Assembly: GCA_900314485.1 (NCBI GenBank)
Contig: OMVL01000014.1
Span: 1 to 46,951 of the forward strand
Origin: an uncultured Eubacteriales bacterium
Lineage (GTDB): Bacteria; Bacillota; Clostridia; Oscillospirales; Oscillospiraceae
Direction of reading: 5' to 3'
Length of the DNA stretch: 46,951 nt
The notes under the pieces are model-generated. The model did no database searches. It was not told the DNA's origin and saw only the letters and a program-made list of their open reading frames with translations. Positions 6,992-21,475 of this stretch are shown here, piece after piece (positions within the stretch are counted from its first letter, which is position 1; the number at the start of each line of letters is the position of its first letter). The position numbers and the translations under genes are program-made.

Positions 6992-7052
6992 AATGGATTT
7001 CTCCTCTCGGGACATTGACGGGGGAAGGGCAGCGCCTTCTCCTGCCTCTAAT

Positions 7053-7081
7053 ATAGTACCGATTTTTACCGTTCTCCGCAA
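7053..7081 (-). promoter_or_regulatory. Sigma-A promoter of lysA
   Basis: Minus-strand TTGCGG (7081-7076), 17-base spacer, TACTAT (7058-7053), about 60 bases upstream of the lysA start. No lysine riboswitch is possible in so short a leader. Confidence 0.65.
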
Positions 7082-7221: not shown

Positions 7222-7250
7222 TTGACGCTTGTTGTGCAAATCTTTATAAT
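7222..7250 (+). promoter_or_regulatory. Sigma-A promoter of the hydrogenase operon
   Basis: TTGACG (7222-7227), exactly 17 bases, TATAAT (7245-7250). The transcript would have a leader of about 90 bases ending in AAAGGAGG before the first start codon. This is the best promoter in the window, and none as good is seen inside the operon. Confidence 0.88.
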
Positions 7251-7345: not shown

Positions 7346-8428
7346 ATGAGCTACACCATTCCGATCGGCCCTTACCATCCCGCGTTGGAAGAGCCGATCC
7401 ATGCCCGCCTGACCGTTGACGGCGAGCGCATCACCGATGCGAAGGTGTTTGTGGGTTACAACCACCGGGGCATTGAAAAGCTGGCCCAGGAGCGGAACTT
7501 CATCCAGACCCTGGTGCTGGTGGAGCGGGTCTGCGGCATCTGCTCCCACTCCCACTCCCTGACCTACGCCATGTGCATCGAGCACATTATGGGTGCGGAG
7601 GTGCCCAAGCGGGGCCAGTATATCCGGGTCATCGTGGAGGAGCTGGAGCGCATCCACTCCCATCTGCTGTGGCTGGGCATTGCCTGCCACATTGTGGGAC
7701 ACGACAGCATGTTTATGCAGATCTGGAACGACCGGGAGCAGACCATGGACACGCTGGAGGCCGTCACCGGCAACCGGGTGAACTACGCCATGAATACCAT
7801 CGGCGGCGCCCGGAGGGACATTGACGACGACAAGCGGAAGCTGATCCTCGCTGCCATGGACGATCTGGAGCAGAAGATGGGCCCCATCACCCACTACCTG
7901 ACGAGCGACAAGACGCTGGCCATGCGCACCAAGGGGGTGGGCGTGCTCACCACCGAGGACGCCGTTCGGCTGGGCACCGTCGGCCCCCACGCCAGAGCCT
8001 CCGGCGTGGATATGGACGTCCGCCGGGACGCGCCCTATTCTTCCTATAACGACTTTGAGTTTGCCGTCCCCGTCCAGCAGTCCTGCGATGTGTACGCAAG
8101 AGTGGTCATCCGGGTGCTGGAGATCTACGAGAGCATTAAGATCATCCGTCAGGCGGTGGATCTGCTCCCTGAAGGCCCCATCAACCTGGGCAATAAGATG
8201 CCGAAAGTCCCTGCCGGAGAGTTTGTCGCCCGGCACGAGGCGCCCCGGGGCCATCTGGTCTATAAGGTGGTCACCGACGGAGGACAGACCAACCACCGGA
8301 TCAGCATCCACGTCCCCACCTTTAAGACGGCGCCTACCGTCCCTGTCATGCTGAAAGGAAACACTGTGGCGGACGCCGGCCTGATCGTGGCCTCCATCGA
8401 CCCCTGCTTCTCCTGTCTGGACCGGTAA
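7346..8428 (+). CDS. mbhL: Group 4 [NiFe] hydrogenase catalytic (large) subunit, MbhL/EchE-like
   Basis: This cytoplasm-facing subunit holds the NiFe(CN)2CO centre where protons are reduced to H2. In 360 residues both nickel-ligand motifs are present: RVCGICSHSH at 61-70 (Cys63, Cys66, His70) and DPCFSCLDR at 352-360 (Cys354, Cys357). The protein stops at that arginine, so there is no C-terminal peptide to be clipped, and no hydrogenase endopeptidase gene occurs in the operon. The internal GARRDI and the lack of a fused NuoC domain fit Mbh/Ech rather than HycE. The AAAGGAGG site fixes the start. It is the first gene of the operon, with hypA three bases away, which is unusual because it is normally beside the small subunit. 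Confidence 0.95.
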   Translation: MSYTIPIGPYHPALEEPIHARLTVDGERITDAKVFVGYNHRGIEKLAQERNFIQTLVLVERVCGICSHSHSLTYAMCIEHIMGAEVPKRGQYIRVIVEELERIHSHLLWLGIACHIVGHDSMFMQIWNDREQTMDTLEAVTGNRVNYAMNTIGGARRDIDDDKRKLILAAMDDLEQKMGPITHYLTSDKTLAMRTKGVGVLTTEDAVRLGTVGPHARASGVDMDVRRDAPYSSYNDFEFAVPVQQSCDVYARVVIRVLEIYESIKIIRQAVDLLPEGPINLGNKMPKVPAGEFVARHEAPRGHLVYKVVTDGGQTNHRISIHVPTFKTAPTVPVMLKGNTVADAGLIVASIDPCFSCLDR

Positions 8429-8431
8429 GCC

Positions 8432-8776
8432 ATGCACGAGCTGGCTATCACCCAGAGCATTTTGAACATTGCCGAAAATGCCGCAAAGGAACACGGGGTC
8501 AAGAAGGTGCGGGAGGTCCGTATCAAAATCGGCGACTACTCCGGCGTTGTGCCCCAGTGCGTCAGGTATTACTTTGACGTCATCAGCAAGGGAACGGTGG
8601 CGGAAGGGGCCGAGCTGAAAATGGAGCGGCTTCCCATCCTCATGCGCTGTGAGGACTGTAACTGGCAGGGAGAAGTGGACAAGCACCACATCGAGTGCCC
8701 CTCCTGCGGCGGCATCCGGCTCAAGCTGCTTCAGGGAAGAGAGTTTTATGTCGAAAGCTTGGAGGTGGACGACTAG
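8432..8776 (+). CDS. hypA: Hydrogenase nickel-insertion protein HypA
   Basis: HypA delivers nickel to the large subunit together with HypB. The 114-residue protein begins MHEL, so His2, the nickel ligand, is present. A structural zinc site is formed by Cys73, Cys76, Cys89 and Cys92 (CEDC and CPSC). Its length is normal. It is three bases after mbhL and two bases before hypB, so the three are surely co-translated. Confidence 0.96.
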   Translation: MHELAITQSILNIAENAAKEHGVKKVREVRIKIGDYSGVVPQCVRYYFDVISKGTVAEGAELKMERLPILMRCEDCNWQGEVDKHHIECPSCGGIRLKLLQGREFYVESLEVDD

Positions 8777-8778
8777 GA

Positions 8779-9444
8779 ATGGAAATCAAAGTCATGCATC
8801 AGGTCATGGAGTGGAACGAGGACGTCAGCGACGCTGTGAAGGCTGACCTCGCCGCCCATCATGTATGCCTCATCAACGTGCTGGGAAGTCCGGGAGCGGG
8901 CAAGACCAGCACCATTGTCTCCCTCATTGACCGGCTGAGGGACAGATACCGCATCGGCGTCATTGAGGGAGACATTGCCGGCCAGATCGACGCCGACAAA
9001 ATTCACGCACTGGGTCTGCCGGTGGTTCAGCTGGACACCGACGGCGCGTGCCACATTGAGGCCATGAGCATCCAGCACATCCTGCCGGAATTTGATCTGG
9101 ACGCTCTGGACGTCCTTTTTGTGGAGAACATCGGCAATCTGGTCTGCCCCGCCGAGTTTAACATCGGCGAGAGTTTCCGATTGGCCCTTCTGAGCATCCC
9201 GGAGGGAGACGACAAGGTGGAGAAATATCCCCTGATGTTCGCAACTTCGGACGCTCTGGCCATGAACAAATACGATTTGAAAGAATACTTTGGATTCGAC
9301 GATCAGCGGGTGGAGCGAAACGCCAAAGCCGCCAATCCGGATATCTCCGTCTTTCGCATTTCCAGCCGGGACGGGATGGGACTGGATGGGCTTGCAGCGT
9401 GGGTCGCAGACCGCATTGACGCATCCTTGAAAGAGAGAACGTAA
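8779..9444 (+). CDS. hypB: Hydrogenase nickel-incorporation GTPase HypB
   Basis: HypB is a SIMIBI-class GTPase that drives nickel transfer. The chosen start, ATG 8779 (MEIKVMHQV), directly follows the hypA stop; the frame is open further upstream but that overlaps hypA. The 221 residues show the P-loop GSPGAGKT at 36-43, EGDIAGQIDADK, DTDGACHIEA (the metal-binding Cys/His of the G domain), ENIGNLVCPAEFNIGE, and a base-recognition region MNKYDL. There is no N-terminal His-rich nickel-storage stretch and no CxxCGC motif, so it is the short form. Confidence 0.95.
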   Translation: MEIKVMHQVMEWNEDVSDAVKADLAAHHVCLINVLGSPGAGKTSTIVSLIDRLRDRYRIGVIEGDIAGQIDADKIHALGLPVVQLDTDGACHIEAMSIQHILPEFDLDALDVLFVENIGNLVCPAEFNIGESFRLALLSIPEGDDKVEKYPLMFATSDALAMNKYDLKEYFGFDDQRVERNAKAANPDISVFRISSRDGMGLDGLAAWVADRIDASLKERT

Positions 9445-9456
9445 GGAGGGAAAAAC

Positions 9457-9993
9457 GTGCAGAAACCGTCGTCAAAATTCCTTGCCTGGCTGTCCGCCTT
9501 TATCTTCTGCTTTCTGTTCTGGCTGCTGCTGACCTGGTCCGTAGCGCCGAGAGAGCTGATTTTAGGCGGAGTGGTCAGCGCCATTGTCGCCGCTTTCTCC
9601 GGGAGATTCCTGATCCATCATCAGGCATTCTACCTATATAACCCGGTGCGGCTCATTGTCCTGATTTTCTACTGCGCCATCATCTTCCTGTGGGAGGTCA
9701 TCAAGGCCAACTTCGCCATGGCAAAGCTGGTGCTCAGCCCCCGGCTGAAGTATGAGGCCGGCATCCTCCGCATTCCCGCATCCGACAAGGTGCAAAGCGA
9801 ATACGGCCTTGCCATGGTGTCCAACTGCATCACCCTGACTCCCGGCACCATCACCGTGGATGTGGCGGAGGACGAGGGTGGTAAAAACTACTACTACGTC
9901 CACTGGATCGACGTGGCCGAGACCGACCGTGACAAGGCCGGCGAGGCCATCAAGGGCCGGATGGAGCGCTGGATCGGGAGGATTTGGAAATGA
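9457..9993 (+). CDS. mnhE: Mrp antiporter subunit MnhE / MbhA-like
   Basis: This is a membrane subunit of the Na+/H+ module of the hydrogenase. The 178-residue protein starts with GTG at 9457 after AAGGAGGG. It has two N-terminal hydrophobic helices, AFIFCFLFWLLLTWSV and LILGGVVSAIVAAFSG, then YNPVRLIVLIFYCAIIFLWEVIKANFAMAKLVL. The conserved cytosolic MnhE part follows, including SNCITLTPGTITVDV. Family length is about 160-180. It overlaps mnhF by four bases (ATGA). It starts the Mrp block E-F-G. Confidence 0.93.
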   Translation: MQKPSSKFLAWLSAFIFCFLFWLLLTWSVAPRELILGGVVSAIVAAFSGRFLIHHQAFYLYNPVRLIVLIFYCAIIFLWEVIKANFAMAKLVLSPRLKYEAGILRIPASDKVQSEYGLAMVSNCITLTPGTITVDVAEDEGGKNYYYVHWIDVAETDRDKAGEAIKGRMERWIGRIWK

Positions 9994-10244
9994 TCGAATT
10001 GTTGATTGCCGCCATCGTCTGCGTGGTGCTGAACCTGTTCCTGCTCTTCCGCATCTTCCGCGGCCCCACCGCCGCCGACCGGATGTGCGCCGCCGACGCG
10101 CTGGATCTGGTCTCCGCCCTTGCCCTGGTGCTCTACTCTCTCTATACCGGCCGGGCGATCTATCTGGACATCGCTCTGGTGGTGGCCCTCCTGGGCTTTG
10201 TGGGCACCGTCTTTGTGGCCCGCTATCTGGAAGGGAGGCTGTAA
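9990..10244 (+). CDS. mnhF: Mrp antiporter subunit MnhF / MbhB-like
   Basis: The 84-residue protein starts at ATG 9990, overlapping the mnhE stop, with GGGAGG eight bases upstream. It has three predicted helices and the family signature FRIFRGPTAADRMCAADALDLVSALALVL, matching MnhF's RGPT..DR motif. It is a small membrane subunit of the Mrp module, needed for assembly or ion translocation. It is followed after three bases by mnhG. Confidence 0.93.
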   Translation: MIELLIAAIVCVVLNLFLLFRIFRGPTAADRMCAADALDLVSALALVLYSLYTGRAIYLDIALVVALLGFVGTVFVARYLEGRL

Positions 10245-10247
10245 GCG

Positions 10248-10586
10248 ATGCGCATTGCCATTGACATTCTGCTGGGGATCGGCGTGTTCTTCATCCTTGT
10301 GGGTGTGCTGGGCGTCAACCGGATGCCCGACGTGTTCGGACGGCTTCAGGCCTCCACCTGCATCGCCACTATGGGTACCATCTCTGTGGTGCTGGCGGGT
10401 ATTCTCTACGCTGTCTCCAACGGCGGAGAGACTGTTACTTACGTAAAGCTGGCCGTTCTCCTGCTGCTGGTCATGGGTACCAACCCCATCAGCAACCACG
10501 CTCTTTGCAAGGCCGCCTACAAGATGGGCGTCAAGCCCGCCAGGGAGCTGGTCATTGACGACTATAAGGAGGATGATCCGGAATGA
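10248..10586 (+). CDS. mnhG: Mrp antiporter subunit MnhG / MbhC-like
   Basis: The 112-residue membrane protein has three helices. The signature GVLGVNRMPDVFGRLQASTCIATMGTISVVLAG matches the MnhG/PhaG family (R.PD...R.HA), with LLLVMGTNPISNHALCKAAY in the last helix. It overlaps mbhD by four bases. Together with MnhE and MnhF it forms the small-subunit end of the ion-translocating arm. Confidence 0.93.
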   Translation: MRIAIDILLGIGVFFILVGVLGVNRMPDVFGRLQASTCIATMGTISVVLAGILYAVSNGGETVTYVKLAVLLLLVMGTNPISNHALCKAAYKMGVKPARELVIDDYKEDDPE

Positions 10587-10849
10587 ATCTGAACGGAATT
10601 CTGGTATTCGTCCTGAATACCCTTGCCATCATCGGGGCGGTGGCCGCCGCTGTTGTGGCGGTGCAGGCCAAAAAGCTGATCGACTCGGTCATCGCTCTGG
10701 CCGCCACCGGCTCCTTTATCGCCCTGGAGTTCATTTTGCTCCAGGCTCCGGACGTAGCCATTGCCGAGGCCAGCGTGGGCGCCGTCCTCTCCACGGTATT
10801 GTACATCATCGCCCTGCGCAAGGTGAGAGCAGAGGAGGATGAGAAATGA
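10583..10849 (+). CDS. mbhD: DUF4040 membrane subunit MbhD-like
   Basis: The 88-residue protein has three hydrophobic helices. SFIALEFILLQAPDVAIAEASVGAVLSTVLYIIAL is the DUF4040 signature seen in MbhD and in the C-terminal part of MrpA. The acidic residues in this helix pair (LEF, APDVAIAEA) are thought to take part in ion movement. It is separate from any MrpA, as in archaeal Mbh. It overlaps mbhE by four bases. Confidence 0.92.
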   Translation: MNLNGILVFVLNTLAIIGAVAAAVVAVQAKKLIDSVIALAATGSFIALEFILLQAPDVAIAEASVGAVLSTVLYIIALRKVRAEEDEK

Positions 10850-11226
10850 ATGTGAAAAAGCTGTTTCTGACCATCTCTCTGGTCATTCTCCTGGCCTGCG
10901 GCGTCTATGCCGCCATTGTCATGGCATCCGGCGATCCCACCTACGACGGCTCTGAGACCGATGTGGTGGCGCTGTACGAAAACCCGCAGGACTATGACAA
11001 CTCCAAGGCCGACGGCGTGGCCGCCGTCATAGTGAACGAGAATCTGGACAAGACCGCCGCTCAGAACGTGGTATTCTCCGTCGTCTTCAACTTCCGCGGC
11101 TACGACACCATGGGCGAGAGCTTTATTCTCATCGCCGCCATTGCCGGCTGCCTGGTCGTGCTCCGCAAGACTGGGGGAAAGGGCGAACAGAAGCCCGCTG
11201 AACAGAAGGAGGGAGAAGAGGCATGA
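10846..11226 (+). CDS. mbhE: Membrane subunit MbhE-like
   Basis: The 126-residue protein has an N-terminal helix (LFLTISLVILLACGVYAAIVMA), an extracytoplasmic loop rich in Asp/Tyr, and a second part VFNFRGYDTMGESFILIAAIAGCLVVL. This matches MbhE and the MrpA C-terminal segment (the RGYDT.GE motif). A charged tail rich in Lys, Glu and Gln ends the protein. In Mbh it links the antiporter arm to MbhF (MnhB). It overlaps mnhB by four bases. Confidence 0.9.
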   Translation: MNVKKLFLTISLVILLACGVYAAIVMASGDPTYDGSETDVVALYENPQDYDNSKADGVAAVIVNENLDKTAAQNVVFSVVFNFRGYDTMGESFILIAAIAGCLVVLRKTGGKGEQKPAEQKEGEEA

Positions 11227-11684
11227 AGAAAAAGAACATTATCGTCCGCTGCGCCGCCGATCTGTTCCTGCCTCTGGCCTGCGTCTTCGGCTGCTATGTG
11301 GTCTTCCACGGCAACACCAGCCCCGGCGGCGGCTTCCAGGGCGGCGTGCTCATTGCCAGCGCCATCCTGCTGGTCTTTTTGGGTCACGGAGGGAGCAAGG
11401 TAAAGGGCTCCTTCAGCGAGCGGCTGCTCCACAGCAGCGAGACCATCGCTGAGATCATGTATGTCGTCATCGCCCTCATCGGCATTTTTACCGGTCTGAA
11501 CTTCGCCGTCAACTTTGTCTTTGCCGGCCATCAGTTTGAGACCAGCACCCTGATGAATGACGCTGTGGGCTATCACGTCATGGCCGGCATTGCGTGCCTG
11601 CTCATTCTGATGCTCAGTACGCTGGACCCGGATGAGGACGCAGCCAACGAATCTTCCGAAGGAAAGGAGGCCGATCCCAAATGA
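11223..11684 (+). CDS. mnhB: Mrp antiporter subunit MnhB / MbhF-like
   Basis: The 153-residue membrane protein has four predicted helices. The MnhB signature FHGNTSPGGGFQGGVLIASAILLVFLG (the H....PGGGFQGG motif) is present, and the second half is helical with a short charged tail. It is an ion-translocating module subunit of Mrp and Mbh complexes. It overlaps mnhC by four bases, ATGA. Confidence 0.94.
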   Translation: MKKKNIIVRCAADLFLPLACVFGCYVVFHGNTSPGGGFQGGVLIASAILLVFLGHGGSKVKGSFSERLLHSSETIAEIMYVVIALIGIFTGLNFAVNFVFAGHQFETSTLMNDAVGYHVMAGIACLLILMLSTLDPDEDAANESSEGKEADPK

Positions 11685-12031
11685 TGGTTGTCAACTTTAT
11701 CGGCTCCTTTGCGCTGATCGTGCTGGGACTTTACTGCATGGTGGCCAAGCACAATCTGATCAAAGTGATCATCGGCATGGGCCTGGTGGACTACGGCACC
11801 AACCTGCTCATCGTCTCCGTCGGCTTCCACGCCGGCGGCACCGCCCCCATCTTTACCATCGCCGAGCTGACCCGGGCCAGCTTCTTCGTTGACCCGGTTC
11901 CTCAGGCGCTGACCCTTACCTCCATCGTCATCGGCGCCTGCACCACCGCCATGAGCCTCAGCCTTGTGATGATGCTGAGGAGACAGTACGGCACCCTTGA
12001 CACCAGAGAGATCAGGAGGTTGAACGGATAA
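11681..12031 (+). CDS. mnhC: Mrp antiporter subunit MnhC / MbhG-like (NuoK family)
   Basis: The 116-residue protein has three helices and is homologous to NuoK. It reads GLYCMVAKHNLIKVIIGMGLVDYGTNLLIVSVGF, where the usual conserved glutamate of NuoK helix 2 has Asp in its place (GLVDYG), as in many MnhC. DPVPQALTLTSIVIGACTTAMSLSLVMML follows the MnhC pattern DPLPQALVLTAIVI. It overlaps mbhH by one base. Confidence 0.93.
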   Translation: MMVVNFIGSFALIVLGLYCMVAKHNLIKVIIGMGLVDYGTNLLIVSVGFHAGGTAPIFTIAELTRASFFVDPVPQALTLTSIVIGACTTAMSLSLVMMLRRQYGTLDTREIRRLNG

Positions 12032-13971
12032 TGAACGGTTTTCTGGTAAACTTCCCCATTCTGGCGATCATGACGCTTTTTGTCGGCGCCTTTGTCACCT
12101 CCCTGGTGGGCCGCCGCAATGCTGTGGCACGGAATATTGTGGTGGCGGTCTCCGTCACTGCTGCCCTCGGCATGATACTGGCCCTCGTGAAGCCCGTGAT
12201 GCTGGACGGTCAGATCATCGCCTACTGGCTGGGCGGCTGGCAGCCCGTGGAGGGCTGGGCCATCGGCATCAGCCTTGAGGTGGACGCATTGAGCCTCTTC
12301 TTCGGACTCATCGTCACCGTGGCCGTCTTTGTCTCCGGCCTCTACTCCTTCACCTATATGAATCACGACGATTCGCTGGTGAACTACTATACCCTGTTTT
12401 TGATGCTCTCCGGCTCTGTGCTGGGTCTGGTGCTCTCCGGAGACCTGTTTAACATCTTCGTCATGATCGAGATCATGACCTTTACTGCCGTGGCCCTCAC
12501 CGCCTTCCGCACCGGCTACGACGGCGCGCTGGAGGGTGCTTTCAAGTATCTGGTGGTCGGTTCCCTCGGCTCCACCTCTGTCCTTCTGGGCATTGCCATG
12601 ATCTACTCCCAGGTCCACACCCTGAATTTGGCTCAGATCGCAGCACTGATCCCCGGTCAGGGCGCAAATCCTGTCATGATTGCCGCCTTTGCCTTCCTCT
12701 TCATGGGCTTTGGCACCAAGGCGTTCCTCTTCCCCTTCCATCCTCTGGCGGCGGACGCACACGCTGTGGCTCCCGCTTCCATCTCCCTGATGATCTCCGG
12801 CGTCCTCACCAAGTGCGGCGTCTATGGCATTATCCGGCTGGTCTATGTGCTGTATCAGAACTACAGTACGCCCTTTGTCTCCTATCTGGTCACCGGCTTT
12901 GGCGCTGTCAGCATGTTCGTCTGCGTCACCATGGCCTTTAACCAGCACAACTTCAAGCGGCTTCTGGCCTTCCACTCCATCTCTCAGGTGGGCTACGTCA
13001 TCACCGTGGTGGGTCTGGGTTCCGCTCTGGGTCTCAACGCAGGCCTTTACCACGCCATGAACCACACCATCTTTAAGGGCCTCCTGTTCCTGACTGCCGG
13101 CGCAGTTCAGCATCAGACCGGAAGCCTTGACCTGGACGGTCTGGGCGGCCTGAGTAAGAAGATGCCCAAAACCACATTGCTGTTCCTGATCGGTGCGGCC
13201 TCCATCAGCGGCCTGCCCCCCTTCAACGGCTTTGCCTCCAAGTGGATGATCTATCAGGCGGCCTTCCTCAAGGGCGTGTATGACGGCAATTTCTTCTATG
13301 TCATTGTCGCCGTGGTGGCCCTCATCACCAGCGTTTTGACCCTGGCCTCCTTTGTCAAGGTGTCCCAGAGCGTTTTCTTCGGCCAGCTGCCTGAGCAGTA
13401 CAAAGAGGTCAAAGAGGCGCCCTTTGCCATGCGCCTTCCCATGTGGATTCTGGCAGTCCTGTGCGTGGTCACCGGACTGTTCCCCAACTTTGTCCAGACC
13501 TATCTGCTCACCCCCGCTGTCCGTGCCGTCACCGATCTGACCGGCTACATCGACGCCGCCATGGGCGCCGGCTATGCGGCAAATCACGGCATCGCCAGCT
13601 GGCCGGTCACGGTCATCCCCGTCACCGGCGTGTGGAATCCCGTGTCCTGGCTGCTGCTTCTGTTCTGCGTCACCTGCGGCGTGGCCATCGTGGCCCTGCT
13701 GGCAAGTCCCAGCGACAACAGCAAGCTGCATATTTCTTCCAAGGATGAAAGCGACGAAGAGCGGAATGATAAGTATGAGTCCTTCTTCTCCGGTGAAGAG
13801 GCCCTTTACTCCCAGGTGGGCGGCAGCGATCTGTTCTGGGGCTTCAAGCACAACTGGCGCAAGTATTTCAGCTTTATGCACGACTGGCACAGCGGCATTG
13901 TGAATGACTACGCCCTCTACGGTGTGGTGGCCATTGCCCTTGTCCTGCTGGCCTGCATCGTGATTCTGTAA
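12031..13971 (+). CDS. mbhH: Antiporter-like subunit MnhD/MbhH with a fused MbhI-like C-terminus
   Basis: This is the large ion-translocating subunit, homologous to NuoL/M/N. It has 646 residues, against about 490-510 for MnhD or MbhH alone. Key residues of the half-channels are visible: Glu147 in FNIFVMIEIMTF, Lys230 in GFGTKAFLFPFHP, His237 and Lys261. A 14-helix core ends near residue 490. Then comes an extra helix (NPVSWLLLLFCVTCGVAIVALLAS), an acidic linker, and SDLFWGFKHNWRKYFSFMHDWHSGIVNDYALYG plus a last helix. This tail resembles MbhI, which supplies the lateral helix in archaeal Mbh, so I infer an H-I fusion. It is the only MnhA/D-type subunit in the operon. Confidence 0.88.
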   Translation: MNGFLVNFPILAIMTLFVGAFVTSLVGRRNAVARNIVVAVSVTAALGMILALVKPVMLDGQIIAYWLGGWQPVEGWAIGISLEVDALSLFFGLIVTVAVFVSGLYSFTYMNHDDSLVNYYTLFLMLSGSVLGLVLSGDLFNIFVMIEIMTFTAVALTAFRTGYDGALEGAFKYLVVGSLGSTSVLLGIAMIYSQVHTLNLAQIAALIPGQGANPVMIAAFAFLFMGFGTKAFLFPFHPLAADAHAVAPASISLMISGVLTKCGVYGIIRLVYVLYQNYSTPFVSYLVTGFGAVSMFVCVTMAFNQHNFKRLLAFHSISQVGYVITVVGLGSALGLNAGLYHAMNHTIFKGLLFLTAGAVQHQTGSLDLDGLGGLSKKMPKTTLLFLIGAASISGLPPFNGFASKWMIYQAAFLKGVYDGNFFYVIVAVVALITSVLTLASFVKVSQSVFFGQLPEQYKEVKEAPFAMRLPMWILAVLCVVTGLFPNFVQTYLLTPAVRAVTDLTGYIDAAMGAGYAANHGIASWPVTVIPVTGVWNPVSWLLLLFCVTCGVAIVALLASPSDNSKLHISSKDESDEERNDKYESFFSGEEALYSQVGGSDLFWGFKHNWRKYFSFMHDWHSGIVNDYALYGVVAIALVLLACIVIL

Positions 13972-13986
13972 AGGAGGGGAGAAGAA

Positions 13987-14955
13987 ATGACTGCACTGCT
14001 TATCAATCTGTTCTATGTCCTGATTTTCCCCGGCCTGCTCTTTTGTATTCTGATGGGCATTCTGCTCTCCGGACTGGACCGCATCTGGGTGGCCCGGATG
14101 CAGCGCCGCGTGGGTCCCCCTATCCTCCAGAGCTGGTATGACTTTCTCAAGTGCTGCGGCAAGGAGACCATCGTCCCCCGCCACGCGAAAAAGACGGTCT
14201 ATTTTGCCGCCCCGGTAGTGGGCTTCGCCGCCCTCATCTCCATTGCCCTGTTCCTTCCCGTAGTGAACGGCCGTCCCGCCTTCTCCGGCACTGCCGATCT
14301 GGTGGTCATCCTCTATCTGCTCACCCTGGTCAGCGTCTGCATGATCGTGGGCGCGGCCTCCTCCGGCTCTCCCTTTGCCGGGGTAGGTCTCAGCCGTGAG
14401 ATGGTGGCCATGATCTCCTACGAGCTGCCCTTCGTCCTGGTCATTTTGGCCTTGGGCAAGGTGACGCTGACGGCGGAGTCCGGCCTGCCGCTGACCTTCT
14501 CCCTTCAGGCCATCTGGGACTATCAGGCGGCAAACGGCCCGCTGCTGTTCCATTGGAGCCTGATTCCCGCCGCCATTGCCATGCTCTTCGTCATCCCCTG
14601 CGAGGTGGGCATGCATCCCTTCGATGTGGCAGAGGCGGAGACGGAGATCTGCGAGGGTACGCTCTCTGAGTACAGCGGACCTCCTCTGGCGGTGTTCCGG
14701 CTGACCCACATGGTAAAGATGTACATCATGACCGCCCTGTTCTATGTCCTCTTCCTGGGGGGCATCTCCACCGGCATTGTGGCGGCGGATGTGGCGATTT
14801 TTATCCTGATCTGCGTCCTGCTCACCTTTATCACCATGAGCCTGCCCCACGCCGCCTGCGCCCGATTCAAGGTAGAACAGGTGTTTCAGTTCTACTGGAC
14901 GATCGTGGCCGGACTGGCCCTCATCAGCCTGATCCTGGTCTGGCTGGGCCTCTGA
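13987..14955 (+). CDS. mbhM: NuoH/MbhM-like membrane anchor subunit
   Basis: The 322-residue protein has about eight helices and belongs to the complex I subunit 1 (NuoH) family, which ties the peripheral hydrogenase arm to the membrane arm. It shows the conserved loop WVARMQRRVGPPILQSWYDFLK, the acidic stretch GLSREMVAMISYELPFVL, and HPFDVAEAETEICEGTLSEYSGPPLAVF, all typical of NuoH. AAAGGAGGG lies just before the start. It is followed 16 bases later by the small subunit gene. Confidence 0.94.
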   Translation: MTALLINLFYVLIFPGLLFCILMGILLSGLDRIWVARMQRRVGPPILQSWYDFLKCCGKETIVPRHAKKTVYFAAPVVGFAALISIALFLPVVNGRPAFSGTADLVVILYLLTLVSVCMIVGAASSGSPFAGVGLSREMVAMISYELPFVLVILALGKVTLTAESGLPLTFSLQAIWDYQAANGPLLFHWSLIPAAIAMLFVIPCEVGMHPFDVAEAETEICEGTLSEYSGPPLAVFRLTHMVKMYIMTALFYVLFLGGISTGIVAADVAIFILICVLLTFITMSLPHAACARFKVEQVFQFYWTIVAGLALISLILVWLGL

Positions 14956-14971
14956 AGGAGGGTGAATCCAA

Positions 14972-15418
14972 ATGTTTGAAAAACTGATCGACAACAGCAT
15001 GGCGAAAAGCCCCTGGATCTTCCACGTCAACGCCGGCTCCTGCAACGGCTGCGACATTGAGCTGGTCAGCGTGCTGACCCCCCGGTACGACGCCGAGCGT
15101 CTGGGCTTCCGCCTCACCGGCACCCCCCGTCAGGCGGACATCGTGGTGGTCAGCGGTCCTATTACCCTCCAGACCCGTGACCGGCTCAAGCGGGTCCTGG
15201 AGCAGGTGCCGGAGCCTTACGTGGTGGTGAGCCTGGGCTCCTGCCCCAAATCCGGCAACGTCTTTAAGGGCAGCTATGCCATTGACGGCCCTCTGGACAA
15301 GTACACCCATGTGGACGTGTCCGTGGCGGGCTGCACGCCCAAGCCGGAGGCCATTGTGGCCGCCCTTGCCAAGGCGACGGAGATTTTGAAAGAAAAGAGA
15401 AAGGAGATGCGTCAGTAA
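14972..15418 (+). CDS. mbhJ: [NiFe] hydrogenase small subunit, NuoB/MbhJ-like
   Basis: The 148-residue protein carries the proximal [4Fe-4S] cluster next to the NiFe site. Its four cysteines are Cys24 and Cys27 (GSCNGCDIE), Cys91 (LGSCPKSG) and Cys121 (AGCTPKPEAI). The family usually has GCPPxPE at the last site, and here the first proline is Thr. There is no Tat signal, as expected for group 4. It overlaps the next gene by one base. Confidence 0.94.
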   Translation: MFEKLIDNSMAKSPWIFHVNAGSCNGCDIELVSVLTPRYDAERLGFRLTGTPRQADIVVVSGPITLQTRDRLKRVLEQVPEPYVVVSLGSCPKSGNVFKGSYAIDGPLDKYTHVDVSVAGCTPKPEAIVAALAKATEILKEKRKEMRQ

Positions 15419-15909
15419 TGCTTCCCTATCTCGGAAAAGCCTTTACGAATTTGTTCCGCAAGCCCAGCACGGAGAAATTTCCTGCCGGAGACGCACCTCA
15501 GGCGGCGGAGCACTACCGGGGCCGCATCTCTTATAACCCGGATGTCTGCGTCAACTGCGGCATGTGCATGCGGGTGTGCGCACCTCAGTGCATGCACCGG
15601 GATATTGAGACCCTGGAAAACGGGGATCAGAAGATCACCTTTACCTTTGACATGACCAGCTGCACCTTCTGCGGCATGTGCGCTGATTTCTGCTCCCGCC
15701 ACTCCATCACCCTGACGGACGACTATATGATGGTGGGCAGCAAGCCGGAGGACTTTATCGTCACCGGCTCCTTCATCAAAAAAGCGCCCCCACCCAAGCC
15801 CAAGCTGACTCCCGAGCAGATCGCCGAGATGAAGGCCAAGGCGGAGGCCGCCAAGAAAGCCAAGGCGGAGGCCGCCGCCAAAGCCGAGGAAGCCAAGGCA
15901 GATGCCTGA
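15418..15909 (+). CDS. mbhN: Two-[4Fe-4S] ferredoxin-like subunit, NuoI/MbhN-like, with charged tail
   Basis: This electron-entry subunit of the hydrogenase should take electrons from soluble ferredoxin. Cluster ligands are Cys44, 47, 50, 54 and Cys82, 85, 88, 92 (CVNCGMCMRVC, CTFCGMCADFC). The spacing fits the NuoI/MbhN type. Residues 121-163 are an Ala/Lys/Glu/Pro tail (for example PPPKPKLTPEQIAEMKAKAE), probably helical and not part of the core fold. The gene overlaps hypF by eight bases. Confidence 0.92.
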   Translation: MLPYLGKAFTNLFRKPSTEKFPAGDAPQAAEHYRGRISYNPDVCVNCGMCMRVCAPQCMHRDIETLENGDQKITFTFDMTSCTFCGMCADFCSRHSITLTDDYMMVGSKPEDFIVTGSFIKKAPPPKPKLTPEQIAEMKAKAEAAKKAKAEAAAKAEEAKADA

Positions 15910-18148
15910 CCTTTGCCGCCTCCATCTGGAGATAGAGGGCATCGTGCAGGGAGTGGGCTTTCGTCCCTTCCTCCACCGGCTGGCGAGACAGCATGAGCTT
16001 GCCGGCTGGTGCAGAAATACCGTGTTCGGCGTGGAACTGGAGGTGGAGGGGACTGCCCCTGCATTGGCCCGGTTTCGTGCCGCCCTGAGAGAAGACCTGC
16101 CCCCGTTGGCCCGTATCAGCGCTCTCCGGGAGACAGCATGTACTGCCCCCGTGGGAGAGCAGGGCTTTCACATCCTGCCGAGCCGCAGGGCGGGCAGCCC
16201 CGATACTCTCATCAGCCCCGACATTGCCACCTGTCCCGACTGTCTCCGGGAGCTGCGGGACAGGGGAGACCGGCGCTACCGCTACCCCTTTATCAACTGC
16301 ACCAACTGCGGCCCCCGATTTACCATCGTGAAGGGCCTGCCCTATGACCGGGCGCTGACCTCTATGGGGCGGTTTCAAATGTGCCCGGCCTGCCGGGCGG
16401 AATACGACAGCATTGAGACCCGCCGTTATCATGCCCAGCCCGACTGCTGCCCCAACTGCGGGCCGACACTAAAGCTCCTCACCCCTTCGGGAGAGGAGCA
16501 GGCCGACCCCATCGGCGGGGCGCAGGAAATTCTGCAAAGAGGGGGTATTGCGGCGGTCAAGGGCCTGGGCGGCTATCATCTGGCCTGTCGGGCTGACCTC
16601 CCTGAGACGGTAGCCGAACTGCGCCGCAGGAAACGGAGAGACGAGCGGCCCTTTGCCCTCATGTGCCGGGATCTGTCCGTGGTGAGACGGTATTGCGACC
16701 TCTCTCCGGATGAGGAGGCTCGGCTGGGCAGCCCCAGAGCCCCCATTGTGCTGCTGAAAAAGCGGCCTGACGCTCCGGAAAACCTGAGCGAGACAAGGGA
16801 GCTCGGGGTCATGCTGCCCTATACCCCTGTCCACCATCTGCTGATGGAGCGGTTTGACCTGCTGGTGATGACCAGCATGAACGTCTCTGACCAACCGGTG
16901 CTGTGCGACATTGCCGAATTCCCCTGGCAAAGGCTGGCGGATGCCTGCCTGACCCACGATAGAGCCATTGTCAACCGCTGTGACGACTCCCTGCTCCGGG
17001 TCTTTCGGGGAAAGGATTCCTTCTTCCGCCGCAGCCGTGGCTACGCCCCGGAGCCTGTGGCGGTGCCCGCCGACTGCACCGGCATTTTGGCCTGCGGAGC
17101 GGAGCAGAAGGGGAGCTTTGCCCTCAGCAGAGGGGGCAATGTGTTTCTCAGCCAGCACATCGGAGATTTGAAGGACTGGGAGACATTTCAGTTCTATGAA
17201 CAGCAGATCCGCCGCTTTGAGCAGCGCTTCGGCGTGGCAGTCCGTCGTCTGGTCTGCGACCTCCACCCGGACTATCTCTCTACGGAATACGCCCGGAAGC
17301 GGAGCCGGGAGGAGGGCCTGCCCCTGCTGCAAGTGCAGCACCACCATGCCCATATGGCCGCCTGCATGGCGGAAAACGGGTTGGAGGGAGACTGCATCGG
17401 TCTCATTTGGGACGGCACGGGCTACGGCACTGACGGCAGTATCTGGGGAGCGGAATGTCTCGTGGGCGGCTATGCCGGGTTTGAGCGGCTCGGCACCATC
17501 CGACCGGTCAAGCTCCCCGGGGGAGACCGCTGCGCCAGGGAGATCGGCCGCATTGCCCACAGCCTGCTGTGGGACGCAGGCCTGCCCCGGCGGAGCGCCC
17601 ATCCTCAGGCAGACCAGCTGACGCAAATGCTTTCCGCCGATCTGAATTCCCCAAAATCCTCCGGCATGGGCCGGCTTTTTGACGGGGTCTATGCCATCCT
17701 GACCGGGCGGCATACCGTCACCTACGAGGGACAGGGGGCCGTCCTGCTGGAGGCCATGGCAGCGGAGGGACAGGCTGCGCCCTATGACCTCACCTTTTAC
17801 GAGGAGGAGGGCCGCCTGACCTTGGACACCCGGCCCTTGACTGCCGCCATTTTGTCGGAACAGGCCGGAGGAATCCAACCTGCGTCCATCGCCGCCCGCT
17901 TTCTGGAGAGTTTGGTCTCGCTGGCGGTGGCTCACGCAAGCTACGCCAGAGAGAAAACCGGCCTTCACCGGGTGGTCCTCTCCGGGGGCGTGTTTCAGAA
18001 CGCCCGGCTCCTGCCCCGTGTGCTGGATACACTGACAGGGGCGGGATTTACACCCTATTACCATACCCATGTGTCTGCCAACGACCAGGGCATTCCCCTG
18101 GGGCAGACGCTGATCGCCGCCAAAGGAGGCGGGATACCATGTGTTTAG
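15902..18148 (+). CDS. hypF: Carbamoyltransferase HypF
   Basis: HypF moves a carbamoyl group from carbamoyl phosphate to the C-terminal Cys of HypE, the source of the cyanide ligands on iron. The 748 residues comprise an acylphosphatase domain (VQGVGFRPF, Arg21), two zinc fingers (Cys111/114/133/136 and Cys161/164/183/186), a YrdC-like domain, and a Kae1-like C-terminal domain with HHHAHMAACMAE and WDGTGYGTDGSIWGAE. Length and domains are complete. It overlaps the ferredoxin gene upstream and hypC downstream by 8 and 10 bases. Confidence 0.97.
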   Translation: MPDLCRLHLEIEGIVQGVGFRPFLHRLARQHELAGWCRNTVFGVELEVEGTAPALARFRAALREDLPPLARISALRETACTAPVGEQGFHILPSRRAGSPDTLISPDIATCPDCLRELRDRGDRRYRYPFINCTNCGPRFTIVKGLPYDRALTSMGRFQMCPACRAEYDSIETRRYHAQPDCCPNCGPTLKLLTPSGEEQADPIGGAQEILQRGGIAAVKGLGGYHLACRADLPETVAELRRRKRRDERPFALMCRDLSVVRRYCDLSPDEEARLGSPRAPIVLLKKRPDAPENLSETRELGVMLPYTPVHHLLMERFDLLVMTSMNVSDQPVLCDIAEFPWQRLADACLTHDRAIVNRCDDSLLRVFRGKDSFFRRSRGYAPEPVAVPADCTGILACGAEQKGSFALSRGGNVFLSQHIGDLKDWETFQFYEQQIRRFEQRFGVAVRRLVCDLHPDYLSTEYARKRSREEGLPLLQVQHHHAHMAACMAENGLEGDCIGLIWDGTGYGTDGSIWGAECLVGGYAGFERLGTIRPVKLPGGDRCAREIGRIAHSLLWDAGLPRRSAHPQADQLTQMLSADLNSPKSSGMGRLFDGVYAILTGRHTVTYEGQGAVLLEAMAAEGQAAPYDLTFYEEEGRLTLDTRPLTAAILSEQAGGIQPASIAARFLESLVSLAVAHASYAREKTGLHRVVLSGGVFQNARLLPRVLDTLTGAGFTPYYHTHVSANDQGIPLGQTLIAAKGGGIPCV

Positions 18149-18357
18149 CAGTACCCTTGAAGCTGACAGAGATCGACGGGAAGGACGCCGTCGGAGAGCT
18201 GGAGGGCGTCCGCCGCAAAATCCGGGTGGACTTTCTCCGGGACCCTCAGATCGGAGACTACGTCATTGCCCACGCCGGCTTTGCCATTGAAAAACTGAAC
18301 GAAAAGCAGGCCCTGGAAAACCTGAAAGCCATTCAGGAGGTGGCCGATGCTCTCTGA
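18139..18357 (+). CDS. hypC: Hydrogenase maturation chaperone HypC
   Basis: HypC (HypC/HybG/HupF family) carries the Fe(CN)2CO unit with HypD and hands it to the large subunit. The 72-residue protein starts MCLAVP, so the essential N-terminal Cys2 is present. GDYVIAHAGFAIEKL is the family hallmark. It overlaps hypF by 10 bases and hypD by 11. Confidence 0.97.
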   Translation: MCLAVPLKLTEIDGKDAVGELEGVRRKIRVDFLRDPQIGDYVIAHAGFAIEKLNEKQALENLKAIQEVADAL

Positions 18358-19441
18358 GTCCGCCTTCCGCCGTCCCCAGGGGGCGGAAAAGCTGCTCACG
18401 GCCATTCGGGAGATGGACCTGCCGGAGGCCCGGCTCATGGAGGTCTGCGGCACCCACACCATGGCCATTGCCAAGTCCGGCCTGCGGCAGGTGCTGCCCG
18501 GCAATATCCGCCTGCTCTCCGGACCCGGCTGTCCCGTCTGCGTCACGCCCGCCGGGGTGATGGACGAGATTTTGAGACTGAGCGAGCTGCCCGGCGTTAT
18601 CCTCACCACCTACGGAGATCTGATGCGGGTGCCGGGGTCTGACCCGGAGGACAGCCTGCAGCGCCGCAAGGCGCTGGGGGCGGACATCCGCTGGGTCTAT
18701 TCCCCCATGGACAGTCTGGAAATTGCGGCGGAACACCCGGAACGTCAGGTCGTCTTCCTCGGCGTGGGCTTTGAGACCACCGCCCCCGGCACAGCCCTGG
18801 CGGTGCTGGAGGCGAAACGGCGGGGATTACGGAATTTCTCCATGCTGTGCCTGCTGAAACGGACAGAGCCCGCCCTCCGGGCGCTGATCCGGCGGCCGGA
18901 TTTTCGGGTGAACGGCTTTCTCTGCCCCGGCCATGTGGCCACGATTTTGGGAGCGGATGCCTTTCGATTTCTGCCGGAGGAATACGGCCTTCCCGCCGTG
19001 GTGTCCGGGTTTGAGACGGGAGACCTGCTGACGGCGGTCTACCGCCTGCTGTGCCAGATCCGGGACGGCAAGCCCGCCCTGGAAAACGAGTACATTCGGG
19101 CGGTCTCCCCTGAGGGGAATACCGCCGCCCGGGCGCTCATGTCCCAGGTGCTGGAGGAAAGGCCGGACATCTGGCGGGGATTGGGGGCGATCGAAGGGAG
19201 CGGCTTTGGCCTGAAAGCTGAATTCCAGGACTACGACGCCGCCCGGCGATTTGACTTCTGCCCCCAGAACCGGGAGAACACCACCGGCTGCCGCTGCGGG
19301 GCGATCATCTGCGGGCAGATGTCCCCTCAGGACTGTCCGCTGTTTGGCAAGCGCTGCCAGCCTGACCACCCGGTGGGGCCCTGCATGGTCTCCGGGGAGG
19401 GGGCCTGCGCCGCGGCATTTCATTACAGACGAATCGAGTAA
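18347..19441 (+). CDS. hypD: Hydrogenase Fe-(CN)2CO assembly protein HypD
   Basis: This [4Fe-4S] scaffold protein builds the iron centre with HypC. In 364 residues it shows EVCGTHT (Cys34), LSGPGCPVCVTP, GVGFETTAPGTA, and a C-terminal cysteine-rich part (TTGCRCGAIICGQMSPQDCPLFGKRC) that ligates the cluster. Complete length. The start overlaps hypC, so the two partners are translationally coupled. Confidence 0.97.
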   Translation: MLSESAFRRPQGAEKLLTAIREMDLPEARLMEVCGTHTMAIAKSGLRQVLPGNIRLLSGPGCPVCVTPAGVMDEILRLSELPGVILTTYGDLMRVPGSDPEDSLQRRKALGADIRWVYSPMDSLEIAAEHPERQVVFLGVGFETTAPGTALAVLEAKRRGLRNFSMLCLLKRTEPALRALIRRPDFRVNGFLCPGHVATILGADAFRFLPEEYGLPAVVSGFETGDLLTAVYRLLCQIRDGKPALENEYIRAVSPEGNTAARALMSQVLEERPDIWRGLGAIEGSGFGLKAEFQDYDAARRFDFCPQNRENTTGCRCGAIICGQMSPQDCPLFGKRCQPDHPVGPCMVSGEGACAAAFHYRRIE

Positions 19442-19446
19442 CAAGC

Positions 19447-20448
19447 ATGAACCAGGATATTATCACACTGGACTACGGCAGTGGGGGACGAAAGACCGCC
19501 CAGCTGATCGACGAGCTGCTGCTTCCCGCCTTTCAGAGCGACACGCTGAACGCACTGGGGGACGGGGCGGTGCTGGATCTCAGCGGCCCCTTGGTCTTTT
19601 CCACCGACAGCTTTGTGGTCAGCCCCCTGTTTTTTCCCGGGGGAGACATTGGAAAACTCTCCGTCTGCGGCACGGTGAACGATCTTGCCATGTGCGGCGG
19701 CATTCCCCGGTATCTCAGCCTGTCCTTTATTATTGAGGAGGGACTGGCTGTGGAGGAGTTAAAGTGCATCATTTCCTCCATTGCCCGGACGGCCAGAGCA
19801 GCGGGGGTGGAGATCGTCACCGGCGACACGAAAGTAGTGGAGCGGGGCAGGGGAGACGGCATCTATATCAATACCTCCGGCATCGGCACGCTGACCTATC
19901 CCGGCCTTTCTTCCGACAATATCCGGGAGGGGGACGCAGTTCTCATCTCCGGCTCCATCGGCGACCACGGAGCCACGGTGATGATGGCACGAAACGGGCT
20001 TCTGGAAGGGAGTCCCCTCTCTTCCGACTGTCAGCCTCTTCATAAGCTGGCCAAGGCGGCATGGAGCTGCGGCGGTGTGCGGGTGCTGCGGGACCCTACA
20101 AGGGGCGGCGTTGCCACCACGCTGAACGAGTTTACAGAGGGTCGGAATTTCTCCATTGAGCTGGAGGCGGACGACCTTCCCATCCATCCCCCGGTACAGG
20201 CGGCCTGCGACCTTCTGGGACTGGACCCCCTCTACTGCGCCAACGAGGGCAAGCTGCTGGCGGTCGTTGCTCCCGACAGGGCGGAGGAGGTACTGCATGC
20301 CCTCCAAAATACCCCCGGCGGAGAGGAGGCAGCAGTCATCGGACGTGTCACCGGGAGAGCCCCGGGCAAAGTGATCTTAAATACCTTCCTCGGCGCAGGC
20401 CGTGTGCTAAGTAAATTGACGGGAGCCCAACTCCCCAGAATATGCTAA
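19447..20448 (+). CDS. hypE: Carbamoyl-dehydratase HypE
   Basis: HypE dehydrates the thiocarbamate on its C-terminal Cys to thiocyanate, which becomes the CN ligand. The 333-residue AIR-synthase/PurM-like protein begins with LDYGSGGRKTAQLI, has DPTRGGVATTLNE, and ends PRIC, so the acceptor Cys333 is intact. It comes five bases after hypD, and 16 bases later follows the NuoC-like gene. Confidence 0.97.
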   Translation: MNQDIITLDYGSGGRKTAQLIDELLLPAFQSDTLNALGDGAVLDLSGPLVFSTDSFVVSPLFFPGGDIGKLSVCGTVNDLAMCGGIPRYLSLSFIIEEGLAVEELKCIISSIARTARAAGVEIVTGDTKVVERGRGDGIYINTSGIGTLTYPGLSSDNIREGDAVLISGSIGDHGATVMMARNGLLEGSPLSSDCQPLHKLAKAAWSCGGVRVLRDPTRGGVATTLNEFTEGRNFSIELEADDLPIHPPVQAACDLLGLDPLYCANEGKLLAVVAPDRAEEVLHALQNTPGGEEAAVIGRVTGRAPGKVILNTFLGAGRVLSKLTGAQLPRIC

Positions 20449-20464
20449 TAAGGCGGTGTTTCCT

Positions 20465-20848
20465 ATGCAAACCAACACAAAAATTTCCATCACCAAGGAC
20501 GAGATCGTCCCGACAGCCCGGAAAATGCGGGACGAGGGCAGGCTCCTCATTATGATCCACGGCCATCTGGACAAGGACAGCCGGCCCGTCATTACCTACG
20601 ACTACTCCCTGGGCGCGGAGGTCGCCTCTTACGAGGTGGTGGGAGAGTCCGTGGTCCCTTCCATTGAGCCGATCTACTCCGCTGCCGCCGAGTGGGCGGA
20701 GCGGGAGATCACCGAGCTGCTGGGCTTCACCTTTGAGGGACTGGACACCTCGGAGCGTCTGTTCCTGGCGGACGCCATGATGGACGGTCAGGGGCAGATT
20801 CTGGTCACGCCGATTAACGTCCTGCGGGAGAAGAACAACCTCAACTGA
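20465..20848 (+). CDS. mbhK: NuoC/EchD/MbhK-like 30-kDa-type hydrogenase subunit, last gene of operon
   Basis: This 127-residue protein starts at ATG 20465 after AGGCGG (an in-frame GTG at 20456 is possible). Residues 64-100 read VPSIEPIYSAAAEWAERE and then ITELLGFTFEGLDTSERLF. That is the core motif of complex I 30-kDa subunits (PSa..W.ERE..D.fGi.f.Gh...RL). The N-terminal half forms the small alpha-beta part found in short EchD forms. It should dock beside the catalytic subunit. Its place after hypE, about 12 kb from mbhL, is odd. Functional naming is by motif and context. Confidence 0.8.
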   Translation: MQTNTKISITKDEIVPTARKMRDEGRLLIMIHGHLDKDSRPVITYDYSLGAEVASYEVVGESVVPSIEPIYSAAAEWAEREITELLGFTFEGLDTSERLFLADAMMDGQGQILVTPINVLREKNNLN

Positions 20849-20862
20849 GAGGAAAGACGACA

Positions 20863-20904
20863 AAAACCCTCCGATCGACCCGAAAACGGGGATCGGAGGG
20901 TTTT
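20863..20904. terminator. Bidirectional terminator after the hydrogenase operon
   Basis: The perfect 14-bp stem AAAACCCTCCGATC / GATCGGAGGGTTTT (20863-20876 and 20891-20904) has U-rich tails in both directions. It ends the plus-strand operon and the minus-strand gene at 20948. Confidence 0.94.
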
Positions 20905-20947: not shown

Positions 20948-21475
20948 TTATTCGTCCTCTTCCTTTGCCACGTCATAGGCTGTCTGAGCGGGACGGCGGG
21001 AGGCGGGGGCAGCGCCTGCGCCCATGCCGGCCACAGAACGGAACTTGGCCCGGGACTGACGGATCTCGTTGAGGGCGACATTGACGGCGTCCTCGGTGCG
21101 GCGCATGGCATCCTCGCAGTAGGTGTTGGCGGCGGCCTTCAGCTCGTTGGCCCGATTTTCCGCCTCGGCAGTGACCCGGGCGGCCTCGGCACGGGCCTGA
21201 CGGGTGATCTCATGCTCGTCGATCAGCTGCTTGGCGCGGTCCAGCGCCTGCTGGCGGATGCGCTCGGCGTCGGTCTTGGCCCCGTCCAGATACTCATTGC
21301 GCTGGGTGAGCAGCTTCTTGGCCTCGCTCAGCTCGGCGGGGAACTTGTTGCGGATCTCGTCCAGCAGATCCAGAGCGTCGTCACGGTTGATACGGCAGGT
21401 GCCTCCCAAGCCGCCCCGTGCGTCGTCGATCATACGATAGAGGCTGTCCAGCAGATCGGTTACTCCATTTGCCAT
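20948..21475 (-). CDS. Coiled-coil protein of unknown function
   Basis: The 175-residue protein is soluble, with no signal or membrane segment. Residues about 5-40 read LLDSLYRMIDDARGG...RDDALDLLDEIRNKFP, then a long helical stretch rich in Ala, Arg and Glu (about 45-150) is predicted to be a coiled coil, ending in an Ala/Pro-rich acidic tail. Similar proteins sit next to coaD and rsmD in other Clostridia and are sometimes labelled ATPase, but no nucleotide-binding motif is visible here. A DivIVA-like or scaffold role is possible but unproved. Confidence 0.75.
   Translation of the reverse strand: MANGVTDLLDSLYRMIDDARGGLGGTCRINRDDALDLLDEIRNKFPAELSEAKKLLTQRNEYLDGAKTDAERIRQQALDRAKQLIDEHEITRQARAEAARVTAEAENRANELKAAANTYCEDAMRRTEDAVNVALNEIRQSRAKFRSVAGMGAGAAPASRRPAQTAYDVAKEEDE

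Follow-up and report, generated by a model that had tools for sequence, protein, structure and literature searches.

How did the gene order of a large respiratory operon come to differ from that of its relatives, and can one step account for the difference? The question is raised by a 19-gene cluster for a group 4 [NiFe] hydrogenase and its Hyp maturation proteins, at positions 7346–20848 of a 46,951-nucleotide (nt) stretch of DNA (the window: contig OMVL01000014.1, forward strand, of assembly GCA_900314485.1, an uncultured Eubacteriales bacterium of the Oscillospiraceae; the assembly comprises 1.77 Mb in 76 contigs and is rated 97.7% complete). Subunits are designated by the letters of their Mbh counterparts, K and L being MbhK and MbhL. 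We propose, with a probability of about 0.85, that the cluster is one operon for a complete, ferredoxin-driven, Mrp-linked [NiFe] hydrogenase of the Mbh type together with the six Hyp maturases, and that its order arose by one rotation at the K-L joint. An initial annotation of the window had read the order as scrambled; comparison of gene orders points instead to a cyclic rotation, by a single cut, of the commonest order among relatives. This suggests that a 19-gene respiratory operon can reorder in one interpretable step, not by scrambling.

A Transcription-Unit-Like Cluster of 19 Genes

All 19 genes lie on the + strand in the order L-hypA-hypB-A-B-C-D-E-F-G-H(I)-M-J-N-hypF-hypC-hypD-hypE-K, with intergenic gaps of −11 to +16 nt; every frame is open at the coordinates given below, and each gene has at least one Pfam match above cut-off. 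The gene list and coordinates of the initial annotation were correct, and its proposal of one promoter and one terminator fits a site with 11/12 consensus matches before L and a hairpin of −31.2 kcal/mol after K, although a separate terminator scan did not list the hairpin at 20863–20904. The sequence likewise bears out its view that a Mrp-linked group 4 [NiFe] hydrogenase and all six hyp genes appear to share one transcription-unit-like cluster. A genome search made with L, but not with J or K, gave one match, in line with the absence of a second L gene. The start of hypB is placed at 8779 from the translation; the hypB query used in searches began at 8773 and was two codons longer.

7222..7250, +: putative sigma-70 type promoter, TTGACG-17-TATAAT, 95 nt before L; 11/12 consensus matches
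7346..8428, +: MbhL-like catalytic large subunit, 360 amino acids (aa); PDB 6cfw_L, E 1.6e-86; Ni-Fe ligands C63, C66, C354, C357
8432..8776, +: hypA, nickel insertion; PF01155, E 5e-35
8779..9444, +: hypB, nickel insertion GTPase; PF02492, E 8.8e-16
9457..9993, +: MbhA, MrpE-like; PF01899, E 8.4e-39
9984..10244, +: MbhB, MrpF-like; 6u8y_B, E 8.6e-16; 6cfw_B, E 3.8e-12; D32 and D38 invariant
10248..10586, +: MbhC, MrpG-like; PF03334, E 1.6e-19
10583..10849, +: MbhD; PF13244, E 1.5e-18
10846..11226, +: MbhE, divergent; PF20501, E 2.1e-6; 28.1 bits against a cut-off of 27
11223..11684, +: MbhF, MrpB-like; PF04039, E 5.8e-19
11681..12031, +: MbhG, MrpC-like; PF00420, E 3.7e-23
12031..13971, +: MbhH-MbhI fusion, 646 aa: MrpD-like antiporter subunit with a C-terminal MbhI tail; matches 6cfw_H and 6cfw_I
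13987..14955, +: MbhM, NuoH-like; PF00146, E 1.1e-62
14972..15418, +: MbhJ, NuoB-like; 6cfw_J, E 1.2e-47; cluster cysteines C24, C27, C91, C121
15418..15909, +: MbhN, NuoI-like; 4Fe-4S ferredoxin-like Pfam match; two 4Fe-4S motifs (8 Cys)
15902..18148, +: hypF, carbamoyltransferase; Pfam match
18139..18357, +: hypC, chaperone; PF01455, E 1.4e-22
18347..19441, +: hypD; PF01924, E 2e-139
19447..20448, +: hypE; PF00586 and PF02769
20456..20848, +: MbhK, NuoC-like; PF00329, E 2.8e-9
20863..20904, +: putative intrinsic terminator, a hairpin with a T-rich tail behind it; −31.2 kcal/mol, z −5.9

Subunit Identity and Class Assignment

For L, H, and J the best PDB match is the Pyrococcus furiosus MBH (6cfw). 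Residues 9–514 of H align to 6cfw_H (E 1.8e-86), and the H tail matches 6cfw_I, with E 4.2e-5 as a single sequence and E 1.5e-8 as a tail profile (scaled to the same database size), as expected of the H-I fusion noted initially. The H frames listed measure 644 to 679 aa between stop codons (L035, whose frame meets undetermined bases, excepted), so the fusion is general among the loci examined.

The Ni-Fe cysteine ligands of L (C63, C66, C354, and C357; L1 and L2 motifs as defined in the accessible part of PMC7886697) are invariant in 126/126 loci, as are the four cluster cysteines of J (127/127), the eight 4Fe-4S cysteines of N (109/109), and D32 and D38 of the MrpF-like subunit B (116/116); in H, K230, K261, and K349 are invariant in 102/102 loci and E147 is present in 101/102. 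L ends at DPCFSCLDR and the 6cfw L chain likewise stops at DPCLSCTDR, so that need for a maturation protease is unlikely; the protease is probably dispensable for L, and no gene for one occurs among the 19 of the operon. Beyond its ferredoxin domain, N ends in a long extension rich in Lys, Ala, and Glu (15790–15909).

The predicted Mrp-linked class is based on the operon contents together with H and J. HydDB group 4d is described as ferredoxin-coupled and Mrp-linked in the text available (PMC5037454), and in the window a MrpE/F/G/B/C/D-like ion module stands in one cluster with MbhD, MbhE, and MbhI (the tail of H). Ech enzymes (group 4e) are distinguished by having no MrpE/F/G/B module: the window has one, and the Ech loci fetched show none of these genes. 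Formate or CO dehydrogenase genes, which would indicate groups 4a, 4b, or 4c, were not found among the 19 genes. In the MBS sulfane-sulfur reductase the Ni-Fe ligands of L are lost, whereas in the window-type L they are invariant.

Gene Order and a Proposed Rotation

Gene orders were compared among loci taken from whole genomes and among named loci, the latter being the best 80 of at least 565 relatives and including some from the same genomes as the former. The commonest order among relatives is hypF-hypC-hypD-hypE-K-L-hypA-(hypB)-A..H-M-J-N. This order and that of the window are one and the same circle, cut either between N and hypF or between K and L. K directly precedes L in 48 of the best 80 named loci, follows N in 7, and lies beyond the fetched piece in 25; in the seven checked among those 25, coordinates place K 13–14 kb downstream of the L start. 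Among whole-genome loci with the window arrangement, 15 pieces extend to the operon end, and K is the final gene in every one. In the seven named loci with K after N, the interval between N and K varies in content, all of hypFCDE being missing from it in L127 and L128, all but hypC in L130 and L135, and hypF in L115, L117, and L118.

An unrooted 13-gene tree of 37 rows requires one change between the two arrangements, and none of 500 shuffles gave a count as low. The class-level outgroup consists of three loci from another family, 63–64% identical in L and all of K-L order, two of which (L221 and L222) have hypC-D-E before K. In a 12-gene tree of 35 rows rooted on these loci, Caloramator and Thermobrachium branch first and further K-L clades next; the 15 K-last rows group together (100/100) within the K-L rows, which are paraphyletic. 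A three-gene tree with Ech as the root gave the same result (99). Because the K-last loci are nested in one clade, the K-L order would be ancestral and one rotation would be enough. The window order is thus best explained as a single-cut cyclic rotation of the ancestral order that occurred once. The initial annotation had L moved next to hypA; L-hypA appears rather to be the older neighborhood, and it was hypFCDE-K that left the front for the end. The rotation may have passed through a tandem duplication whose outer parts were then lost, or through a circular intermediate.

Two candidate traces of such an event were set aside. A 95-aa "hypF" match before L in L138, considered as a remnant of a tandem duplication, reads as an acylphosphatase (no family search was made), and in L130, considered as a half-rotated mosaic, the hypD-hypE pair before L is about 8 kb away, behind other frames. 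Among ten Ech loci fetched wide, eight have a K-like gene between J and L; none was found in L054 and L106.

Promoter-like Sites

Promoter-like sites were scored in whole-genome and named sets that share genomes. The number of such sites in the region, 5 against 3.6 expected, is uninformative by itself. Of 20 whole-genome loci with K and L apart, 19 have a site of at least 11/12 matches before L, compared with 9/600 random pieces; a site of 11–12/12 matches precedes L in 24/28 such named loci. No comparable promoter-like site was found at internal starts of the whole-genome loci (13 of hypF, 19 of A, 19 of M, and 14 of hypE), and none before L where K adjoins it (0/13 whole-genome and 0/47 named loci). 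These counts indicate that a promoter-like site clearly marks the front of the rotated operon; that a promoter stands at the front of the unrotated operon is suggested more weakly.

Proposed Working and Host Metabolism

In the working proposed here, pyruvate:ferredoxin oxidoreductase (PFOR) would reduce ferredoxin, from which electrons would enter at MbhN and pass through MbhJ to the Ni-Fe site of MbhL, where protons would be converted to H2. The MbhM-H(I) part would pump protons, which the MrpE/F/G/B/C-like part would swap for Na+, and the resulting Na+ gradient would be usable by a V-type ATPase for ATP. Rotation of an ancestral hypFCDE-K-L-hypA-B-A..H-M-J-N operon at the K|L joint would have brought L beside the promoter and hypFCDE-K to the end. 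We infer the activity, its direction, and its coupling ion, and with them ferredoxin-driven H2 evolution with Na+ export feeding a V-type ATPase, from sequence. In P. furiosus, according to the accessible part of PMC8415708, proton pumping is considered to be powered by redox activity, with the Mrp-type module trading the gradient for Na+.

The genome of the window has PFOR and one ATPase c-type gene of V-type layout (166 aa, two family matches), whose product contains the motifs LPGTQ, YQG, and VEF, which we take to form a V-type Na+ site. A search of the same genome for rnfC gave no match, whereas 9/9 congeners tested gave one (eight above cut-off); none was found in G119 of a neighboring genus. 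H2 release and ion pumping in gut and rumen Clostridia bear on fermentation yield and methane.

Alternative Explanations

Several observations weigh against the proposed reading. As to the class, in the L tree the window's clade forms its own group (100/100), with no supported position relative to PfMbhL, the one archaeal Mbh used; the second-best PDB match of L, formate hydrogenlyase HycE (7z0s_E), scores 278.5 bits compared with 293.8 for 6cfw_L; subunit B matches the MBS chain 6u8y_B better than 6cfw_B (E 8.6e-16 versus 3.8e-12); and K has weak PDB matches, led by 7q5y_B (E 0.021) with 6cfw_K third (E 0.12). As to the order, trees with distant outgroups alone, Ech among them, did not root the two orders, so polarity depends on the three class-level loci, one of which (L220) is of K-L order and lacks any hyp gene in the 4 kb before K; the L-only tree groups the K-last locus L130 with K-L loci (98/99), contrary to the concatenated trees; and a comparable promoter-like site before hypF is present in a minority of K-L loci (3/7 and 7/33). 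As to the working, the Na+ reading of the ATPase depends on the three motifs named above, and the genome also has one [FeFe] hydrogenase (L188; 485 aa, with 4Fe-4S motifs), presumably of the group-B type, so that the Mbh would not be its sole H2 route. The L188 gene adjoins one that reads, by eye, as CTP synthase.

Two other accounts of the order were considered. Selection might have placed L first and K last, for subunit dosage or for co-translational assembly with HypA and HypB, and the K-last order is indeed kept wherever K is visible in the clade, as is widely the site before L. We consider this unlikely: the L-hypA adjacency predates the rotation, so that L gained no new neighbor, the operon can do without hypB and hypF, and nuo gene order is, by the title of Oppermann 2022, not essential for complex I assembly. 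A piecewise history, with an early move of K to the end and a later insertion of hyp genes between it and N, would account for the N-K junctions of L127 and L128 without hyp genes between, for N-hypC-K in L130 and L135, and for class-level L220 with no hyp gene beside K. It is nonetheless rather improbable, since the class-level outgroups L221 and L222 already have hypC-D-E before K, the K-last loci that branch earliest (L130 and L133) carry hypC-K and hypF-hypC after N, and one move plus losses from hypFCDE-K accounts for the remaining orders.

The function could also be read differently. HydDB, in the part available, regards the Ech type as physiologically reversible (PMC5037454), and a mainly H2-uptake enzyme that spends the ion gradient on ferredoxin reduction might be imagined; with PFOR as a source of reduced ferredoxin in the host, and with the Mrp-linked type placed by HydDB among H2-evolving enzymes, we regard this as improbable. 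An MBS-type sulfane-sulfur reductase, or a relative of complex I that lacks Ni-Fe chemistry, would share modules with the window, and subunit B is nearer 6u8y_B than 6cfw_B; with the four Ni-Fe cysteines invariant in 126/126 loci and six hyp genes present, such an enzyme is very improbable. A ferredoxin-driven Mbh-type hydrogenase whose operon was rotated once thus remains the preferred reading.

Distribution, Probable Transfer, and Loss of hyp Genes

Among 32 genomes of the window's genus, some of them incomplete, the operon's L is found in 21, an Ech-type L (39–41% identical to the window's) in 7, neither in 4, and both in none. Beyond the genus, L at 63% identity or more occurs in 12/200 genomes of the family, 10/394 of the order, and 5/391 of the class, the window's own being counted each time. 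On these counts, a Mrp-linked hydrogenase of the Pyrococcus type is carried by many Clostridia of the gut and rumen.

The initial annotation had suggested a transferable module, and support for this came from a conflict between gene trees. Of 30 genomes in which rpoB was sought by similarity, 28 yielded it. In the rpoB tree, G019 and G027 fall with genomes that bear Ech or neither hydrogenase, whereas the Mbh-gene tree nests them in the window's group and leaves Candidatus Onthomonas outside it (100/99). Each grouping is rejected by the other data set, that of the Mbh genes by rpoB (p 8e-8) and that of rpoB by the Mbh genes (p 0.035); both had been chosen after viewing the trees. Acquisition of the operon of the G019/G027 subclade by transfer is probable. 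G013, from an assembly with a contamination rating of 10%, also changes position between the two trees.

That subunit and maturase production are locked together, as first supposed, does not hold strictly, because three operons (G019, G026, and G027) have neither hypB nor hypF. The operon of G031 has no hypB, its piece stopping at N, and those of G014 and G022 end after hypA. Each of these six genomes has one hypF match elsewhere, 41–43% identical to the window's. The stand-alone HypF proteins of G014, G019, G022, G026, and G027 are 61–62% identical to the Ech-linked HypF of G016 and 37–38% identical to the HypF of G008, another Ech-bearing genome; no hypC or hypD was found beside these five hypF copies within the sequence pieces examined. 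The stand-alone hypF of G027 (L194) has one in-frame TAG stop inside the match.

Movement of the module into an Ech background would be the simplest reading of these data. A fuller history, in which the order changed in one step and the rotated module later entered an Ech lineage, replaced Ech, and shed hypB and hypF while being served by the resident HypF, is tentative and on balance doubtful, because only three operons are without both genes and the HypF of G008 is dissimilar. If true, hydrogenase modules and maturation sets would be exchanged as separate units in gut Clostridia. The natural pairs available (K-L versus K-last operons, and Mbh versus Ech in one genus) bear on the parts played by operon order and resident maturases in assembly.

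Comparison with Known Systems

Published systems are compared here from the accessible portions of the papers cited. The P. furiosus Mbh (6cfw, group 4d) has counterparts of all 14 subunits in the window, including the MrpE/F/G-like Na+ module. Unlike it, the window system is bacterial, has MbhI fused to MbhH and six hyp genes within the operon, has the order L-hypAB-A..H(I)-M-J-N-hypFCDE-K, and has a K of weak similarity. Subunit fusions are known in related complexes (PMC8415708). The Thermococcus kodakarensis Mbh operon, TK2080-TK2093 (PMC4549637), has 14 genes if its tags are gapless. Desulfurococcales Mbh-like clusters of subgroup 4g-5 have all Mbh subunits in an order unlike that of P. 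furiosus (PMC7886697); they are archaeal, unlike the window, and are likened to it by published description, not sequences.

Closest in content is the Caloramator (Thermobrachium) celer cluster TCEL_00187-00205, published as Mbh-like in 2014 (PMC3986597 and PMC3715667) and described as the only route there for reduced ferredoxin (PMC3986597); if its locus tags are gapless it has 19 genes, as in the window. In our locus from Thermobrachium celere DSM 8682 (L159), all 19 gene types of the window recur, in the unrotated order hypFCDE-K-L-hypA-hypB-A..H-M-J-N. We take this strain to be that of the published cluster.

The initial annotation had treated hyp genes beside a group 4 hydrogenase as unusual; at least one hyp gene was present in 10/10 Clostridia Ech loci fetched wide. 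In print, hyp genes adjoin ech (PMC4355364 and PMC4596419), with hypABFCDE beside echABCDEF in Clostridium thermocellum (PMC4355364). These Clostridia clusters resemble the window in joining a group 4 ferredoxin-linked hydrogenase with hyp genes and differ from it in having six subunits, no MrpE/F/G/B module, and, in the Ech loci fetched here, large subunits 39–44% identical to the window's. The kind of enzyme is therefore known, and what appears new is the single rotation and the Ech exchange within a genus: no published account of either was found in a search mostly at title level and without subscription papers.

A third group 4 type was seen in other families (L103, L104, L105, and L223), with an L 47–48% identical to the window's and several H-like genes followed by G, J, L, M, and N; no K or MrpE/F/G was found, and hyp genes precede the cluster in L104, L105, and L223.

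Surroundings of the Operon

The operon is flanked on the left by a lysA-like gene on the opposite strand (5732–7081) and on the right by an opposing gene without a family match (20948–21475). Rfam and tRNA scans of the window gave no matches. Farther left, uvrB (1239–3066, − strand) is split into two overlapping frames (first half 2086–3066, second half 1239–2189) by a frameshift or assembly error. Among the loci compared for flanks, only G018 shares both flanks of the window, divided between the contigs of L051 and L052. Candidatus Onthomonas and a genome close to it (G009, L047/L123; G025, L045/L121) have the operon next to the same coaD-rsmD-uvrC block as the window, on the opposite side of that block, as if it had been inverted, or placed twice at one site.

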